A stretch of DNA of 64,000 bases from Sphingomonas sp. (GTDB lineage Bacteria; Pseudomonadota; Alphaproteobacteria; Sphingomonadales; Sphingomonadaceae): NCBI GenBank assembly GCA_002707985.1, contig PAOI01000024.1, forward strand, positions 11,018-75,017. The letters are read 5' to 3'. Positions 4,593-17,943 of this stretch are shown piece after piece (within the stretch, counting starts at the first letter, position 1; the number at the start of each line of letters is the position of its first letter). A model generated the notes under the pieces. The model was not told the DNA's origin and made no database searches. It saw nothing but the letters and a program-made list of their open reading frames with translations. A program made the position numbers and the translations under genes.

Positions 4593-4621
4593 AGTGAAAC
4601 CTTGCCCCCAAGGCGCCGTGC

Positions 4622-4669
4622 GCCCTGAGCTTGTCGAAGGGCGGGCTTCGACAGGCTCAGCCCGAACGG
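4622..4669. repeat. REP-like doublet: two inverted related hairpins with a GAACGG tail
   Basis: GCCCTGAGCTTGTCGAAGGGC followed by GGGCTTCGACAGGCTCAGCCC then GAACGG, in the nuoI-nuoJ spacer. Confidence 0.8.
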
Positions 4670-4692
4670 GTTAGAATCGATTGGCATGCCGC

Positions 4693-5178
4693 TTAACGAT
4701 ACGGTGCGTCGGCGGCAAGGTTCGCCGCGATGGCGCTTTCCCACCGGTCGCCGTTCGCGAGCAGTTTTTCCTTGTGGTACACCAGCTCCTCGCGGGTTTC
4801 CGTGGCGAATTCGAAATTCGGCCCCTCGACGATCGCGTCCACCGGGCACGCTTCCTGGCACAGCCCGCAATAGATGCACTTCACCATATCGATGTCGTAG
4901 CGAGTCGTGCGGCGGCTACCGTCCTCGCGCGGTTCGGCCTCGATCGTGATCGCCAGCGCCGGGCAGATCGCCTCGCACAGCTTGCACGCGATGCATCGCT
5001 CTTCGCCGTTCGGATAGCGACGCAGCGCATGCTCGCCCCGGAACCGCGGCGAAATCGGGTTCTTCTCGTACGGATAGTTGATCGTCGCCTTGGGCTTGAA
5101 GAAGTAGCTCAAGGTCAGCGCATGCGCCTTGAGGAACTCCCACAGCGTGAAGGAACGGATGGTTTGGGCGAAGCTCAT
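4693..5178 (-). CDS. nuoI: NADH-quinone oxidoreductase subunit I (2x 4Fe-4S)
   Basis: [16 protein letters not shown] and [16 protein letters not shown] ferredoxin motifs; start [10 protein letters not shown]. Confidence 0.97.
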
Positions 5179-5639
5179 TGCGTATCCATCGGATGAGAAA
5201 GGTAGTCGATCAATTCGGCATCGGCGCTGACAAGGGTGCAACGACCCATGTGAGTCTCCGAACCGTGCAGCTCCCCCAGACCGCTGAGGAAGTCCCCGGG
5301 CTCGTCGCTGGGCATAAGCGTCAGCAGATAGCGGGACGAACCCTGTATGAAGAAAGCAAAGCTGTCGTTGCGCGCCAGATACTGAATGACATGGGCATCC
5401 CCGATGAAATCGGGGCCGCCGAGGACGGTGGTCGCTTCGGGCGCATGTTCTCCGAACTGATCGTCGTCATAAACGATGCTGATGCGGAATGCCTGTGCCT
5501 TACGCTGTTCTGCGGTTTCGGCCGTTTCAGGCCACATTACACAGGTATAGCCAGCACGCAGGCCCGAATCCTGAGCGGAAGCAACGCCCGGCGCCAGCGC
5601 AGCAAGCGCAACAAACCCCAGCAACGCGTGAAGCCGCAT
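5175..5639 (-). CDS. Exported hypothetical protein between nuoH and nuoI
   Basis: Signal peptide [22 protein letters not shown]; 1 nt after the nuoH stop and ATGA overlap with the nuoI start. Confidence 0.8.
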
Positions 5640-6687: not shown

Positions 6688-6704
6688 AGGGCGCTCCCCT
6701 TAAC

Positions 6705-6782
6705 CCGTTCGTGTCGAGCGAAGTCGAGACACATTTGCACATCGTTTGCGGCACGTCCCTCGACTGCGCTCGGGACCAACGG
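6705..6782. repeat. REP-like doublet, inverted related hairpins
   Basis: CCGTTCGTGTCGAGCGAAGTCGAGACAC and GTCCCTCGACTGCGCTCGGGACCAACGG in the nuoG-nuoH spacer; same core and tail style as 4622-4669. Confidence 0.75.
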
Positions 6783-6799
6783 CCTATTTGAAAGAACCG

Positions 6800-8806
6800 T
6801 CATTCCGCTGCCTCCGCAAAGGCTTCACCATGGATCAGTTCGGCCGAGCAGCGTTGCATCGTCGGGCTGGCGCGGCAGATCGCGTTGGTGAGGTAAAAGT
6901 CCCGGATCGGATAGGCAATCTCGCCTTCCGCCTTGGTCTCGAGGCCCGGCGGCGCCCATTCGAAGCTCGCCAGACCTTCCTGCGCCAGCGCGGGCGCATC
7001 GGCGAACATCTGCGCGCGCAATTCGCCATAGGTGTCGAACGGCAGCGTCTTGCCCAAAGCTTCGGACAGCGCGCGCAGGATCGTCCAGTCCTCACGCGCA
7101 TCGCCCGGCGGGAAGACGGCGCGGTCGCCGCGCTGCACGCGCCCTTCGATATTCACATAGGTGCCCGGCTTTTCGGCATAGCTGGCCGCGGGCAGGATCA
7201 CGTCCGCCGCATGCGCCCCTGCATCGCCATGGTGGCCGATATAGACCTTGTAGCTCGACTTGAACGCCTTGAAGTCGACTTCGTCGGCGCCGAGGAACAA
7301 GGTCAGTTTGGGCTTGGCCGCAACCACATCGGCGATGCCGCCCGGCTGCGCATAGCCGAGCATCAGCCCGCCCATTCTTGCCGCCGAGAAATGCAGCACG
7401 TTGAAGCCGTTCCAGCCCTCTTTCACGAGGCCCAGCGTCTTGACGAGGCCAAGCGCCGCGCCATGGCCGTTCTTCAGCGCCGCACCGCCGACGATCACCA
7501 TCGGCTTTTCGGCGCCCTTGAATGCGTCCTTCACGACCTTGGGCAGCTTGCCGAGCAGGCTCAGATCATTGCCCAGCCACTGAACCTTATAGGTCAGGTC
7601 GACTTCCGGCCCGATCGCAAACACCTTCGCGCCGCGCTTGATCGCCTTGCGCACGCGGGTGTTCACCAGCGACGCTTCCCAGCGCAGGTTCGTACCGACC
7701 AGCAGGATCACATCCGCTTCTTCGGTACCCGCGATGGTGGTGTTGAAATTGACCGCCGCCAGATTGGTGACGTCATAATCCATGCCGGTCTGGCGCCCTT
7801 CGATCAGGGTCGAGCCGAGCGAATTCACCAGCGCCTTGGCGGCATACATGGTCTCGCAATCGACCAGATCGCCGGCGATCGCAGCAACGCTGTCCTTTGC
7901 CTTCTTCGCCGCAGAAGCGATCGCGGCAAATGCGTCTTCCCAGCTCGCGGCAACCAGCTTGCCGTCGCGGCGGACATAGGGCTTGTCGAGGCGACGGTGC
8001 GACAGGCCGTCAACCGCGTGGCGCGTCTTGTCGTGCGCCCATTCCTCGTTCACGTCCTCATTGATCCGCGGCAGCGCGCGCAGCACGCCGCGGCCACGGC
8101 TGTCGAGGCGGATATTGGTGCCGACGCCGTCCATGACGTCGATCGCCATCGTCTTCTTGAGTTCCCAGGGACGCGCTTCGAACGCATAGGGCTTGCTCGT
8201 CAGCGCGCCGACCGGGCACAGATCGACGACATTGCCCGAAAGCTCGCTCTTGACCGCATGCTCCAGATAGCTGGTGATCTGCATATCCTCGCCGCGGAAG
8301 ATCGCGCCGATTTCCTCGCCACCGGCCACTTCCTCGGTGAAACGGATGCAGCGGGTGCAGTGGATGCAGCGAGTCATCACCGTCTTGACGATGGGACCCA
8401 TATATTTCTCGGTGACGGCGCGCTTATTCTCCTGATAGCGCGAATGGCCCTTGCCATAGGCCATGGTCTCGTCCTGCAGATCGCACTCGCCGCCCTGATC
8501 GCAGATCGGGCAATCGAGCGGATGGTTGATCAGCAGAAACTCCAGCACGCCTTCGCGCGCAGCCTTCACCATCGGGGTGTCGGTGCGGATTTCCTGACCG
8601 TCGCCAGCCGGAAGCGCACAGCTCGCCTGCGGCTTGGGCGGCCCGGGGTTCACTTCGACCAGGCACATGCGGCAATTGCCGGCGATCGAGAGGCGTTCGT
8701 GGTAACAGAAGCGCGGAATTTCCTTACCCGCGGCCTCGCAGGCCTGAAGCACTGTGGCTCCCTGGGGTACTTCTACCTCAATTCCATCGACCGTAAGCTT
8801 GGGCAT
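6800..8806 (-). CDS. nuoG: NADH-quinone oxidoreductase subunit G
   Basis: N-terminal 2Fe-2S (CRMCLVEV) and 4Fe-4S motifs (CPICDQGGECDLQD, CIHCTRCIRF); molybdopterin-like domain. Confidence 0.97.
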   Translation of the reverse strand: MPKLTVDGIEVEVPQGATVLQACEAAGKEIPRFCYHERLSIAGNCRMCLVEVNPGPPKPQASCALPAGDGQEIRTDTPMVKAAREGVLEFLLINHPLDCPICDQGGECDLQDETMAYGKGHSRYQENKRAVTEKYMGPIVKTVMTRCIHCTRCIRFTEEVAGGEEIGAIFRGEDMQITSYLEHAVKSELSGNVVDLCPVGALTSKPYAFEARPWELKKTMAIDVMDGVGTNIRLDSRGRGVLRALPRINEDVNEEWAHDKTRHAVDGLSHRRLDKPYVRRDGKLVAASWEDAFAAIASAAKKAKDSVAAIAGDLVDCETMYAAKALVNSLGSTLIEGRQTGMDYDVTNLAAVNFNTTIAGTEEADVILLVGTNLRWEASLVNTRVRKAIKRGAKVFAIGPEVDLTYKVQWLGNDLSLLGKLPKVVKDAFKGAEKPMVIVGGAALKNGHGAALGLVKTLGLVKEGWNGFNVLHFSAARMGGLMLGYAQPGGIADVVAAKPKLTLFLGADEVDFKAFKSSYKVYIGHHGDAGAHAADVILPAASYAEKPGTYVNIEGRVQRGDRAVFPPGDAREDWTILRALSEALGKTLPFDTYGELRAQMFADAPALAQEGLASFEWAPPGLETKAEGEIAYPIRDFYLTNAICRASPTMQRCSAELIHGEAFAEAAE

Positions 8807-8910
8807 GCAACTTTCGTCCTGGTTTCACGACGGCCCACGCGGACTCGGTCCGGGTGCGCCACTGCGCGCGCCACGTCTCTGTCCGAGAGCGCGGCCAAGT
8901 GCAACCCACC

Positions 8911-8926
8911 GCATTTGCGCAAATGC
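8911..8926. promoter_or_regulatory. 16-bp perfect palindrome, candidate operator upstream of nuoG
   Basis: GCATTTGCGCAAATGC equals its own reverse complement; sits between an intrinsic terminator and nuoG. Confidence 0.4.
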
Positions 8927-8959
8927 AAAAAACGGCCGAGGAAACTTCGATTTCCTCGG
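8927..8959 (-). terminator. Rho-independent terminator inside the nuo operon
   Basis: Minus strand CCGAGGAAA-TCGAAG-TTTCCTCGG followed by CCGTTTTTTG; 9-bp perfect stem and T-run, downstream of the 8992..9702 gene. Confidence 0.85.
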
Positions 8960-8991
8960 TCGCCTTACATTGGTTCCGCTTCGGATAAGTC

Positions 8992-9702
8992 TTAAGGATG
9001 GAGCCAGTAGTAAAGGCCCTCGGCGATGGGCCCGCGCTGTGCGGTCGGTGCGATGTCCGCCGGACGCGCGGTCAAGCCACATTCCGGAGTCGCACCGTAG
9101 AGGGCGTCGACCGCGTCCTCTTCGCCCGAAGTGCCCGGATCGCTCTTCAGGACCTTGAACGCGAGGCCCGGCGAATAGACCGCAAGGCAGCGCGAGAAGT
9201 TCGACAGTGTCACGCCGGCGCCGTTAAGATTGCCGTGATATGCCTCGGCCTTGGTGACATCGACGTTGGCCGCGCGATCATCAAGCGTCGGATTCTCGCG
9301 CAGCAACAGCTGTTCGGCGAGCGCTCCGTTGAGTATCACCGGAACGAGACCCGCGACATCACGCACGCAACCGCTGTACCGACCACGCAGCGCGCGGCTC
9401 ATGTCGCTGTAATCGGGATCGTCGGTGCCTGCGCCGCCGAGCAGCGACGCCGCGCGGTTCCCGCCGGTGCGCACCATACAGCGCGCGGTGACGGCGGCGT
9501 GCTCGTAAGCCCGTGAGGCGCTTTCCGGGTTCGCGAACAGCGAGGCGGTGCTGAAGCGATCGGCGAAGTCGCGATTGCCCTCACGCATTTCGGAGGGGCG
9601 CGCCATGTGCTGCGGCTGCTGGTTCTGCGCCATCGCCTGCGCGCCGCCCGCAAGCGAAGCAATTGCCGCCACAACTCCAAGGGTGATATTGTTCATCGCC
9701 AA
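8992..9702 (-). CDS. Exported hypothetical protein, paralog of 9909..10649
   Basis: Signal peptide; shares RC.V..GG..AASLLGG..TDDP.Y, LN.A.AEQL.LR, SPGLA.KVL, TPECG with its neighbour. Confidence 0.85.
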   Translation of the reverse strand: MAMNNITLGVVAAIASLAGGAQAMAQNQQPQHMARPSEMREGNRDFADRFSTASLFANPESASRAYEHAAVTARCMVRTGGNRAASLLGGAGTDDPDYSDMSRALRGRYSGCVRDVAGLVPVILNGALAEQLLLRENPTLDDRAANVDVTKAEAYHGNLNGAGVTLSNFSRCLAVYSPGLAFKVLKSDPGTSGEEDAVDALYGATPECGLTARPADIAPTAQRGPIAEGLYYWLHP

Positions 9703-9908: not shown

Positions 9909-10649
9909 TTAACCTTCCCGCTGCGTCCAATGATACAGTGCATCAGCAACTGCACCGCGCTCAAATGCGCGGCCGACATCGCTCGGAGCGTTGGAGACTC
10001 CGCATTCCGGCGTGCTGCGATACAGGGTGTCGAGCGCCGCTGCTTCCGCTTCCGAACGCACCGGCGTTTCGAGAACTTTGTACGCAAGGCCCGGCGAGAA
10101 TACCGAGACGCAGCGCGCGACCTTGACCAGCGTCACTTCGCCTTCGAAGCTGCCGTAGAATGCCTCTGCCTCATCCATGTTCACGAAAGACGCGCGATCC
10201 TCGAGGCCGGCACTGCCGGCGCGCAGAACCAACTGTTCCGCAATCGCATAATTGAGCATCAGCGGCGCGACGCGCCCTCCCCGCGAGCAGGTGCGATACT
10301 CTCTCCAAACCGCCGTCCGGACCCCCTGATACTGCGGATCATCGGTCAGATCCCCGCCCAGGAGAGAAGCTGCATCCGATCCGCCGATGCCGACAATGCA
10401 GCGCGCCGTCGTCTGCGCCAGCGAATATTGTTCGGCAAGCTCGCCAGGGCGGTCGCCCAGGCTATACGCGGTATATGCGCGAGGATTTAGATCCCCTGCC
10501 GAACGCGTCGGGCCCCAGGGTGAACGCGGCACGCGCTGCGCCGACGCATTGGAAGGTGCCGACGGCACGACTTGGGCAGATGCCTCAACGGCCACGAAAG
10601 ACATCGCAAGCGCAACAGCGCCGATCGTCGCAGATTTCACGCGCAACAC
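9909..10649 (-). CDS. Exported hypothetical protein, paralog of 8992..9702
   Basis: Signal peptide MLRVKSATIGAVALAMSFVAVEASA; same conserved blocks and Cys positions as its neighbour. Confidence 0.85.
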   Translation of the reverse strand: MLRVKSATIGAVALAMSFVAVEASAQVVPSAPSNASAQRVPRSPWGPTRSAGDLNPRAYTAYSLGDRPGELAEQYSLAQTTARCIVGIGGSDAASLLGGDLTDDPQYQGVRTAVWREYRTCSRGGRVAPLMLNYAIAEQLVLRAGSAGLEDRASFVNMDEAEAFYGSFEGEVTLVKVARCVSVFSPGLAYKVLETPVRSEAEAAALDTLYRSTPECGVSNAPSDVGRAFERGAVADALYHWTQREG

Positions 10650-10956
10650 CCCTTCTAATTCGCAATGTTCAGGGAAGCCTGCGCCAAGCCAACCATTTAA
10701 TCAATAGTTCGGCGGTGGTGGTGACAGATGCACTAAACCGCTTAACTCGAAAAACACTCGCTTCGACCGCTTATCGCGCAAATTCAGTCGGTTCATCGAA
10801 CATTCATACAAAGCTCTACGATACCAAACGAGGAAATTCGGGCAATCTTACTGCGATTTATCTAAGCGGATACCGCACGCTTCGTCAGATAAGTGTCAAT
10901 GCTTTCGAATGGCGTCGCGCGCCACGCCTTTTGATCAGAACACTCGTCTGACAATA

Positions 10957-12273
10957 CTACTCCGCCGCCTCCATCATCGGTGCGCCGCCACCGTTCTTTT
11001 CATTGATACGCCGCTCCAGTTCGGGGCGGAAATGGCGGATCAGGCCCTGGATCGGCCATGCCGCCGCATCGCCCAGCGCGCAGATGGTGTGGCCTTCGAC
11101 CTGCTTGGTCACCTGAAACAGCGTATCGATCTCGCTGATGTCAGCATCGCCCGTGCGCAGCCGTTCCATCACGCGCCACATCCAGCCGGTGCCTTCGCGA
11201 CACGGCGTGCACTGGCCACAGCTTTCGTGCTTGTAGAAATAGCTGATGCGCGCGATCGCCTGAACAATGTCGGTGGACTTGTCCATCACGATGACGGCGG
11301 CGGTACCAAGGCCCGAACCCAGTTCTTTCAGCCCGTCGAAATCCATCGGCGCGTCCATGATCTGCGCCGCCGGTACCAGCGGAACCGAAGAGCCGCCCGG
11401 GATCACCGCGAGCAGATTGTCCCAACCGCCGCGAATGCCGCCACAATGCCGCTCGATCAGCTCGCGGAACGGGATCGACATCGCTTCCTCGACGACGCAG
11501 GGCCGGTTCACATGGCCGCTGATCTGGAAAAGCTTGGTGCCCTTGTTGTTCTCGCGCCCAAAGGACGAGAACCATTCGGGTCCGCGCCGCAGGATCGTCG
11601 GCGCAACCGCGATCGATTCGACATTGTTGACCGTGGTCGGGCAGCCATAGAGGCCCGCACCCGCCGGGAATGGCGGCTTCAGGCGCGGCTGGCCCTTCTT
11701 GCCCTCAAGGCTTTCGAGCATCGCGGTTTCTTCGCCACAGATATAGGCGCCGGCACCGCGATGGCAGAATACGTCGAAATCATAGCCCGAACCGCAGGCA
11801 TTCTTGCCAAGGAAACCCTTGTCATAGGCTTCGGCAATCGCCGCGAACAACGTCTCTGCCTCGCGGATATATTCGCCGCGAATATAGATGTACGCCGCAC
11901 GCGCCCGCATCGCGAAGCCCGCGACAAGCGCCCCTTCGAGCAGCTTGTGCGGATCATGGCGGATGATCTCGCGATCCTTGCACGAACCGGGTTCTGATTC
12001 ATCGGCATTGATGACGAGGAAGCTCGGGCGTTCCGGCGTCGGATTCTTGGGCATGAAGCCCCATTTGACGCCGGTCGGGAACCCTGCCCCGCCGCGCCCG
12101 CGCAGGCCCGAAGCCTTGATCCGATCGATGATCGTATCATTGCCCAGATCCAGCAGCGCCTTGGTATTGTCCCAGTCGCCACGCTTCATCGCAGCATCAA
12201 TGTTCCACGGCTGAAAGCCATAAACATTGGTGAAGATGCGATCCTTGTCGGCGAGAGGCGTGAAGTCGCTCAT
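10957..12273 (-). CDS. nuoF: NADH-quinone oxidoreductase subunit F
   Basis: [26 protein letters not shown] and [15 protein letters not shown] motifs; start [14 protein letters not shown]. Confidence 0.97.
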
Positions 12274-12431: not shown

Positions 12432-13108
12432 GCCGTCTTCTCCCACTCGCCACGATAATCGTGGTTTTCGGTCTGCATCGCCGCCAGGTTGGTCGGCTCG
12501 CCCACCGGCTCGACCGTGTGGCGGCCCGGTTCCTGCGTCCCGGGCTTGGGGCTCTCGCCCTTCGCCAGCGCATTCAGGATCGCGGTGGTGCGATCGTAGT
12601 CCAGATCCTCGAAATTATCGTCGTTGATCTGGACCATCGGCGCCGAGGCGCAATTGCCCATACATTCGACTTCGGTCAGCGTGAACAGGCCATCCTCGGT
12701 GGTATGGCCCTTCACCATGCCCTTGTCCTTGCACGCGCGGAAAACCTCGTCGCTGCCGCGCAGCCAGCATGGCGTGGTCCCGCACACCTGAACATGATGC
12801 TTGCCGACCGGATTGAGGTTGAACATCGTGTAGAAGCTCGCGACTTCCAGCACGCGGATCACCGCGAGATCGAGCTCCCTGGCGACAAACTCAATGACCG
12901 GAATCGGCAGCCAGCCCTGCGTATCGGTCTCCGCACCAACCTGCCGCTGGGCGAGGTCGAGATAGGGAATGGTGCAGCTCTGCTGACGCCCCTCGGGATA
13001 GCGCGAACGGATTTCCTTTGCCTTGGCGGCATTCGCCTTGGTCCAGGCAAAGCTACCCCAGCGCGCACGCAGTTCGGGGGTATCGGAAATGACTTTCTTG
13101 TCAGCCAC
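12428..13108 (-). CDS. nuoE: NADH-quinone oxidoreductase subunit E (GTG start)
   Basis: 2Fe-2S thioredoxin-like motifs: [12 protein letters not shown] and [11 protein letters not shown]. Confidence 0.97.
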
Positions 13109-13337
13109 GGTTTCCTCGGAGTTTAGGGATCAGCCACAGCGGGCGTGCAACGATAATCTGCAGCGCTGCGGCAGCGACAAGCGCCAGCGCCGAAAACTGG
13201 ATCACGAACGACGCTCTTTCGAAGCCGATTGCGGAAAAGGCCAGCAGCAGCGCCAGGAACTGCCCCAGCAGCAACAGCCACACGTCCGACAGTGCCCGAA
13301 TCAGCGCGATCACCAGGTTGCGTGTTTCCGTGTGCAT
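13101..13337 (-). CDS. Small two-TM membrane protein upstream of nuoE
   Basis: MHTETRNLVIALIRALSDVWLLLLGQFLALLLAFSAIGFERASFVIQFSALALVAAAALQIIVARP...; TGATG overlap upstream, 8-nt overlap with nuoE. Confidence 0.65.
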   Translation of the reverse strand: MHTETRNLVIALIRALSDVWLLLLGQFLALLLAFSAIGFERASFVIQFSALALVAAAALQIIVARPLWLIPKLRGNRG

Positions 13338-13762
13338 CAAGGCGCCCTCGGCACCAAAACGACCGGCGCACCCCAATAGATAGCCGCGATGCGCCCTTCC
13401 GACGCGCGAAACGTCGCGACCCGGGAGGAGCCATCTGCGCAAGCCCATGAGACGATGGACTCGCTCGACGATGGCGCCTTCCACTCCGGAAAGAGTTTAA
13501 TCGGGTCGACCTTGCAGTCGCCGATATAGGCTCGCACGGCCGACTTGCTCGAAGCGACACCCGTCGATAGGCGTTCGCCATCGGGCCCGAGATAGGATTC
13601 GATCACGGGCTCGGCGCTCAGATACTGCGATCCATCGCTCCCGTTCGCGATGGCCTCGACATAGGACGTCAGGGCCGCGAGATTGCGCGCCTGCGCCTCG
13701 GCATTCCCTGCTTCCGCATCTTGAGCTGGAACGACCGCCAGGGCGAGTATCATGGCAATCAC
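13337..13762 (-). CDS. Exported hypothetical protein (GTG start)
   Basis: Hydrophobic N-terminus MIAMILALAVVPAQDAEAG; start GTG overlaps the stop of the scar ORF in the same context as 13863..14339 after nuoD. Confidence 0.7.
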   Translation of the reverse strand: MIAMILALAVVPAQDAEAGNAEAQARNLAALTSYVEAIANGSDGSQYLSAEPVIESYLGPDGERLSTGVASSKSAVRAYIGDCKVDPIKLFPEWKAPSSSESIVSWACADGSSRVATFRASEGRIAAIYWGAPVVLVPRAP

Positions 13763-13863
13763 CGGTCACACTCCCCGCATGCGCGCACATTCGCCTTGGC
13801 CCAGGCAAAGCCCGACCGGCACTCGCGGATTTCCGGGGTATCGGGGATGGTTTTAGCGGCCAT
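13759..13863 (-). pseudogene. Hybrid remnant ORF: nuoE 5' end fused to nuoD 3' end
   Basis: [35 protein letters not shown]-part matches Nuo[29 protein letters not shown]; last 19 nt identical to the nuoD terminus (GECDR*). Confidence 0.85.
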
Positions 13864-14339
13864 TATCGCTCACCAAGAGGCTTGAGAGGCATCGTTCCCG
13901 TACCAACCAGAACAACGCCGCCTTCTACATTCCTAAGCACAAACAAAACTGCAAAACGCAAGTCTCCTTGGTTCGCCGGACAATCCCAGAGAATCCCCCC
14001 TCCCCCTGGATTCATCCATCTGCAGTTCTTTATGAAATCGATGAATTCGTCAGCCGAATAGGTTCGATATCCTTCAACAGCCGACCGGACAGGACCTCGC
14101 ATTAATGCGGCCATTGCTTCGTAATCACTCGAAGCAGCTGCATCCACAAACCGCGCCCCATAACCCACAAACGAATTGGAAGCTCGGTCGAAGGCATTGG
14201 TACCAACCGTCAGGGAATCTCGACCCGACGGTTGCTCGCTGACAGGGACATCTCCCGACTGGGCCAAGGCAGTCTTCGGCGAAGCAAGAACCAAAATGGC
14301 CGCTCCGAGCACAAGAATAAAGGCATTCCTCTTGCTCAC
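13863..14339 (-). CDS. Exported hypothetical protein (GTG start) directly after nuoD
   Basis: Signal peptide [30 protein letters not shown] overlap with the nuoD stop. Confidence 0.75.
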
Positions 14340-15571: not shown

Positions 15572-16416
15572 GCGTCCTTACCCCCGTCCTTCGGAGGCAC
15601 CACATCGGGGTCCTTGGGCTTGTCTTCGGGCTGGTTGCCCGGATCGGCTTCGCCTGCCCCGGTCTGCGCCGTGCTTTCGGTCGTCTTCGGCGTGTCCGCC
15701 TTGGGTTCGACTTTCTTGTCAGCGGCCTCGTCGGCTTTCTTGATCTCGTCGGCCTTGAGCGGCGTCGGCGCGCCCTTGGCCTCGGGCACCTTGGCGTCGG
15801 CCTTCTCGTCGCCGGGAAGGATATATTCGGCGCCTTCCCAAGGGCTCATGAAATCGAAATTGCGGAAATCCTGCGCCAGCTGCACCGGCTCATAGACGAC
15901 GCGCTTGGCTTCTTCGGAATAGCGCAGCTCGACATAGCCCGAGAGCGGAAAGTCCTTGCGCTGCGGATGGCCGACAAAGCCGTAATCGGTCAGGATGCGG
16001 CGCAGGTCCGGATTACCTTCGAACAGCACGCCGTACATGTCGTACACTTCGCGCTCGAGCCAGCCGGCGACCGGCCAGATGCCCGTCACGCTCGGCACCG
16101 GCTTCACTTCGTCGGTGATCACCTTCACCTTGATACGGTGGTTCCGCGTCAGGCTGAGCAGCATGTACACGACTTCGAACCGCTCGGGACGCGACGGATA
16201 GTCGACACCGGCGATTTCCATCAGCATCTGATATTCAAGGCCCGGCGTATCGCGCAGCGCGATCATGGCATCGACCAGCGTCTCGCGCGCGAGCGTCAGA
16301 TTGACTTCGCCGACACTGTCCTCGCTGGCAAGCAACATGGCGCCCAGCGCCGAAGTCGCGGTTTCGATCACGCCGTCATTGGGCGCGAATTTGGGTGCAG
16401 GGTGGCGCTGCGTCAT
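15568..16416 (-). CDS. nuoC: NADH-quinone oxidoreductase subunit C with long acidic/lysine-rich C-terminal tail
   Basis: [44 protein letters not shown]-type motif; low-complexity tail after [19 protein letters not shown]. Confidence 0.96.
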
Positions 16417-16949
16417 TGCTCGTTTATCCGGACGGAATCAAAGATGCGATCGACCATCGCGTGCCGTGCCGCGGAATCGGCTCCGGCATCGTCAAAGCCG
16501 CCGAGGATCAGGATCAGTCGCGAATGATCGAGTTCGATCAACTGGGTCTGCGCGACCTGCCCATCGGATTCTTCGCGATTGACCAGCGCACGCCGGCCTT
16601 GAAAGTCGAAAGCCCGGATGCTGCCGCCACTTTCCTCATGCTCGATCATTTCCTGAAACGCGTCGAACAGCGCCGGTGCGCTTTCCGGATAGTCGGTCGG
16701 CTCGAAAATGCCGGCGACCAGCAACAACGTGCCCTTCTTGCACAGGATGCGCGAATTGGGCGCGAAGGTGACACCGTCGGTGACCGAAGGCATTTGGTCG
16801 AACGCGGCAATCTCTTCGGCGGTGCACGGCGTATCGATCGTGAACGCCCCGGTTCCGGACGTCGCCGGCGCCCAGCCTTCCTGCCCCGCATTGGCCGCCC
16901 CCGCGAGAGTCAGCGCAGCGCAGGCCGCCAGCATATGCAGCGGTCGCAT
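16413..16949 (-). CDS. Exported hypothetical protein between nuoB and nuoC
   Basis: Signal peptide [26 protein letters not shown] overlap with the nuoB stop and 4-nt overlap with the nuoC start. Confidence 0.75.
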
Positions 16950-17488
16950 CACCGTTCGATCGTCCCGACCCGGCGGATCTTCCGCTGCAACTGCATCACG
17001 CCATAGAGCAACGCTTCGGCAGTCGGCGGGCAACCCGGCACATAGATATCGACCGGCACGATGCGGTCGCATCCGCGCACGACACTGTAGCTATAGTGGT
17101 AATAGCCGCCGCCATTGGCGCAGCTGCCCATTGAAATCACATATTTCGGCTCGGACATCTGGTCGTACACGCGGCGCAGCGCCGGAGCCATTTTGTTGCA
17201 CAGCGTACCGGCAACGATCATCACGTCCGACTGGCGCGGCGAAGCACGCGGCGCGGCGCCGAACCGCTCCATGTCATACCGCGGCATGTTCACATGGATC
17301 ATCTCGACCGCGCAGCAGGCAAGGCCAAAGGTCATCCACCACAGCGAGCCGGTGCGCGCCCACTGGAACAGCTCCTCGGTCGAAGTGACCAGAAAGCCCT
17401 TGTCGCCCAGCTCGGCATTGATGTCGTTGTAAAATGCCAGGTCCGGCGCAGTGCCGGGCGGCGGCGGGGTGGTAAGATCTACTCCCAT
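16949..17488 (-). CDS. nuoB: NADH-quinone oxidoreductase subunit B
   Basis: [34 protein letters not shown] and [16 protein letters not shown] motifs; start [12 protein letters not shown]. Confidence 0.97.
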
Positions 17489-17853: not shown

Positions 17854-17928
17854 GGGGCCTTCTCGCAATTGCGGAAACACAGGGGGCTTCTAGGACTGTG
17901 CCGGGTGAGCCGCAAGGCCCGGAAGCCC

Positions 17929-17943
17929 TGAGAATCATTCGCA
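17929..17943. promoter_or_regulatory. Candidate Fur-like 7-1-7 inverted repeat upstream of nuoA
   Basis: TGAGAAT-C-ATTCGCA: one mismatch from a perfect 7-1-7 dyad, about 80 nt upstream of the nuoA start. Confidence 0.35.

Follow-up and report, generated by a model that had tools for sequence, protein, structure and literature searches.

Gene order between nuoF and nuoG

Complex I requires its subunits in a fixed ratio, and co-transcription of their genes is the usual arrangement. In the window (the whole stretch of 64,000 nucleotides analysed, positions 11018-75017 of contig C24 of genome G000, a Sphingomonas-like bacterium), the nuo operon lies on the minus strand and runs from nuoA (17880) downwards. 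Between nuoF and nuoG it carries two inserted ORFs for secreted-type proteins, here called uX and uY (Table 1), for which no Pfam or NCBIfam family was matched. The original prediction placed the hairpin considered here after the second of two "F/G paralogs"; the position, behind uY, is right, but uX and uY (41% identical) are paralogs of each other and not of nuoF or nuoG.

With 48% GC, the spacer between nuoF and uX (10650-10956) is AT-rich by the standard of this genome. A uX promoter may lie in it, although the nuoA-type matrix described below is not decisive there. Further inserted ORFs without a known family are present on the minus strand of the operon, at 16413-17000, 13863-14339, 13337-13762, 13101-13484 and 5175-5639. 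The nearest relative, G011, whose compared nuo proteins are 95-100% identical, has no match to four of these five, and ORF 13101-13484 gave no hit of its own in either of the two genomes. REP-like short inverted repeats occur in the nuoI-nuoJ (4593-4692) and nuoG-nuoH (6688-6799) spacers, and short motifs resembling them are present at other sites of the genome.

Table 1. Features around the nuoF-nuoG junction of G000 (window coordinates)
Feature	Position	Strand	Remarks
nuoF, last nuo gene before the insert	10957..12273	(-)	start approximate; stop 10957-10959
uX, inserted secreted-type ORF	9909..10649	(-)	related to uY
uY, inserted secreted-type ORF	8992..9702	(-)	terminator at its end
Extended stem	8931..8964	(-)	GGCG pairs into CCGTT past an A.C mismatch
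Core terminator hairpin	8936..8959	(-)	10 bp (9 perfect + U.G), loop CGAA
T6 tract of the terminator	8927..8932	(-)	read from sequence
TTGCAC-N17-CAGAGA, conserved element, candidate nuoG promoter	8876..8904	(-)	-35 8899-8904, -10 8876-8881
nuoG, first gene past the terminator	6800..8806	(-)

A terminator-like hairpin behind uY

Read along the minus strand, the sequence behind uY is GGCGA-CCGAGGAAAT-CGAA-GTTTCCTCGG-CCG-TTTTTT-GCATTTGCGCAAATGC. The 9-bp stem is perfect, with arms CCGAGGAAA/TTTCCTCGG, and a tenth pair, U.G, closes the CGAA tetraloop; the hairpin starts 32 nt past the uY stop codon and the T-run ends 121 nt before the nuoG ATG (which begins at 8806). With its outer extension the hairpin folds at -18.8 kcal/mol (z -3.4, equalled by one of 200 shuffles), and the core without the extension at -13.7 kcal/mol, so that sequence and fold confirm the perfect stem, the T6 and the distance to nuoG that had been predicted. 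The T-run had also been described as following the stem; it is present, and CCG forms a 3-nt gap between it and the perfect stem, the outer pairs extending the stem up to the U-tract. The same hairpin on the plus strand has no T-tail, and the signal is therefore unidirectional, toward nuoG only.

The structure has three features of an intrinsic terminator, namely a stable stem with a short loop, a U-tract behind the stem and a position just past a stop codon. The stability of the 64 nt past the uY stop ranks mid-range among the co-directional gaps of the genome, and it is the U-tract, not stability, that distinguishes the structure of G000. As a calibration, both strands of 507 kb of the same genome were scanned for hairpins with a T-tract, genes being called by codon usage (89% called coding and 11% intergenic). 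With dG of -18 or lower and a T-score of at least 3.9, four hairpins were found, all of them intergenic behind stop codons and none in genes; at less strict thresholds most hits fall within genes, which shows that the grade of the hairpin matters. Clean-stemmed intergenic hits mostly start 7-40 nt past a stop, as the uY hairpin does, and two other co-directional hairpins of the top grade lie in gaps of 174-175 nt, 94-126 nt ahead of the following gene, the corresponding values here being 185 and 124. The intrinsic terminator originally proposed is thus well supported, in form and position, by the fold, the calibration and the core energy.

The verified intrinsic terminators of Zymomonas mobilis, a member of the same order, have stems of about 11 bp, loops of about 4 nt and energies of about -17 kcal/mol (PMC7566282). 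The hairpin behind uY resembles them in stem length, tetraloop, energy, U-tract and place past a stop codon between co-directional genes; unlike that set, for which 3' ends were mapped, it lies within the operon for one enzyme complex and is predicted from sequence.

A riboswitch or other known regulatory RNA was rejected, since the only Rfam match for the region was at chance level (E 0.89, 5.5 bits against a cut-off of 55), and so was a repeat-element (REP-type) origin, the segment 8807-8991 being unique in the genome apart from short chance matches. Directly behind the T-run lies a perfect 16-bp palindrome, GCATTTGCGCAAATGC (8911-8926), which has one exact copy in the genome and is absent from 60 relatives; given this single copy and six near matches at two mismatches, it was discarded as a common operator. 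The stretch GGAAA-N16-CGTT across the hairpin, which by eye resembles a general-stress (EcfG) promoter, was set aside, as it has one mismatch and the stem accounts for the GGAAA.

The F-G junction in other sphingomonads

The 77 distinct sphingomonad loci compared fall into 36 in which nuoG abuts or overlaps nuoF, typically as TAATG, and 41 in which more than 60 nt lie between the two genes. These gaps are usually occupied by one or more ORFs, which mostly overlap or nearly reach the end of nuoF and the beginning of nuoG. A strong terminator at this junction was found in G000 only; the weaker candidate of locus L102 was rejected, since it falls in sequence that codes for a transmembrane segment. 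Three other hits of similar score were found in the roughly 818 kb of sense-strand sequence scanned at these loci, all outside F-G junctions. G011 has nuoG and nuoF proteins that are 97% and 99% identical to those of G000, with ORFs in the F-G slot that are only 26-28% similar; its last insert ends 9 nt before nuoG, and its slot contains neither the hairpin nor the leader element described below.

The insert slot turns over quickly and, as the hairpin is absent from G011 and from the other F-G junctions, the terminator is associated with the insert, in one lineage. The idea that a nuoA-F/nuoG-N split serves to adjust the stoichiometry of complex I is not supported as such, because the signal stands behind an insert and is missing from all those junctions; nor does splitting appear to be a design of the nuo operon, nuoF and nuoG overlapping in the commonest sphingomonad layout. 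Occurrence in one species only, in a slot of such turnover, would be consistent with a hairpin that is a product of chance or decaying, functionless sequence and arrived with the insert, a view that the 507-kb calibration and the fit to the verified Z. mobilis terminators make very improbable.

Using a family profile built from uX, uY and two relatives, we searched 295 genomes of the genus and found genes of this family in 29, most of them occupying the F-G slot; uX and uY belong to a rapidly diverging secreted-type gene family at this slot. In seven relatives with such a gene, the spacer from the insert stop to nuoG exceeds 60 nt, and five of them show a strong stem-loop past that stop: G081 (spacer of 65 nt), G210 (67), G186 (81), G129 (165) and G312 (196). 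Structure is weaker or less clear in G178 (72 nt) and G099 (252 nt). The start of the spacer folds at -40.2 kcal/mol (z -5.8) in G312 and at -35.3 kcal/mol (z -5.5) in G081. No U-tract was found behind the stem-loops of any of the seven, and the five strong ones are unrelated to the hairpin of G000. Strong stem-loops at the same place without a U-tract are consistent with a barrier to decay, which would set the segmental stability of the upstream mRNA without terminating transcription, the T6 having little effect; for G000 we regard this as unlikely, as it has a T6, a run rare in this genome (46 runs of six or more T per 1.01 million strand-bases), and as hairpins with a tail of such grade are found only behind stop codons in the 507 kb.

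A conserved element in the nuoG leader

G312 was retrieved when the F-G region served as query in a DNA search. Its nuoG leader aligns with that of G000 and shares two exact blocks with it, GGGTTGCACTTG and TCGGACAGAGACG (runs of 13 and 12), which are separated and flanked by variable DNA; two exact runs of such length were obtained in 0.13% of column shuffles of this alignment. Among the 295 genomes, the pattern GGTTGCRCT-N16-CAGAGA has a single occurrence in each of G000, G312 and G129 and none elsewhere; the one in G129 is not an independent prediction, since the pattern was written after the G129 spacer had been viewed. All three copies sit in nuoG leaders, with a uX/uY relative upstream and a spacer of 165-196 nt. 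Compared with the Z. mobilis sigma-A consensus TTGNNN-17-TANNNN, TTGCRC-N17-CAGAGA fits in the TTG, the spacing of 17 and the A of the -10 box, and lacks the first T of that box.

A matrix built from 61 sphingomonad nuoA promoters detected no nuoA-type promoter in the nuoG leader (score of -3.6, the 65th percentile of background, versus 21.5 for held-out nuoA promoters); as this matrix misses the element, any promoter there would be a weak one or belong to another type. A simple sigma-70 scan of the first 20 kb of the window gave no site on the minus strand. The separate nuoG promoter that had been postulated between 8807 and 8926 is likely but unproven: it has a candidate, favoured by conservation in two other species and not by the nuoA-type matrix. 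The conserved element may also have a role other than that of a promoter.

Transcription across the junction

The reading that fits best, among those considered, is that transcription stops and restarts at the junction with some leakage, and we give it slightly better than an even chance. The hairpin and its T6 would act as an intrinsic terminator, ending the uY transcript and any transcript coming from nuoA-F and uX; transcription from nuoG onward would start largely at the TTGCAC-N17-CAGAGA element, in the leader behind the terminator, with some read-through adding to it. We infer termination in the cell and its efficiency, like the promoter activity of the element, from the DNA itself. A terminator and a leader promoter at the insert would cut the operon of this lineage into two units. 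Counted against this reading are the CCG gap (unless the extension forms), the -10 box without its first T, the low score with the nuoA matrix, the short spacers of G081 and G210 and the lack of both hairpin and element in G011.

Alternatively, the terminator may be leaky and nuoG without a promoter, all nuoG-N mRNA then arising by read-through and nuoA-F and the inserts being made in excess. With no more than 65-67 nt between the uY relative and nuoG, G081 and G210 leave little room for a promoter, and read-through must therefore suffice there; the leader without a nuoA-type promoter and the CCG spacer, which could weaken termination, also favour this possibility. In ABC-importer operons of cellulolytic clostridia, internal terminators behind secreted-protein genes set the ratio of the flanking transcripts, the upstream ones being in excess (PMC9045158). 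The stem-loop behind uY likewise follows a secreted-type gene, precedes the remaining subunit genes and could set a transcript ratio; unlike the clostridial case, the secreted-type gene is here an insert without a known family and a candidate promoter lies downstream (PMC9045158). A leaky terminator alone is an option that we find doubtful, as it leaves the element conserved in the leaders of three species unexplained and conflicts with the fixed subunit ratio that complex I needs.

Operon-internal termination sites also lower downstream gene expression in Methanococcus maripaludis, which shares termination within an operon with the present case but is archaeal and dependent on the factor aCPSF1 and poly-U tracts (PMC10450193). 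Internal terminators that set transcript ratios being documented in both bacteria (PMC9045158) and archaea (PMC10450193), the kind of signal is already known, and the interest lies in its location within an operon for complex I. In the collection of papers searched, none on nuo-internal terminators or a nuoG promoter was found.

If termination followed by restart is correct, an insert bringing a terminator, together with a nuoG that has its own promoter-like element, would show how a complex-I operon tolerates splitting. The sphingomonad F-G slot, with its many different inserts, is a natural series for the study of how operons absorb genes, in three modes: overlapped and coupled, with a stem-loop and read-through, or with a terminator and restart. 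More speculatively, and in our opinion improbably, terminator and leader element could form a regulated junction, with the palindrome at 8911-8926 perhaps as operator, at which nuoG onward would be switched apart from nuoA-F and the inserted secreted-type proteins, altering complex-I assembly under some condition; any such effect at the level of the subunits is conjectured from the arrangement of the junction.

The region upstream of nuoA

Upstream of nuoA, a promoter TTGCGG-N17-TAGAAG is predicted at 17886-17916 (-). A Fur-like box, TGCGAATGATTCTCA, lies beyond it at 17929-17943 (-) and, by its resemblance to Fur sites, may bind Fur; allowing up to two mismatches, 48 of the 73 nuoA upstream regions compared among sphingomonads contain the box, versus six places in 507 kb of this genome.
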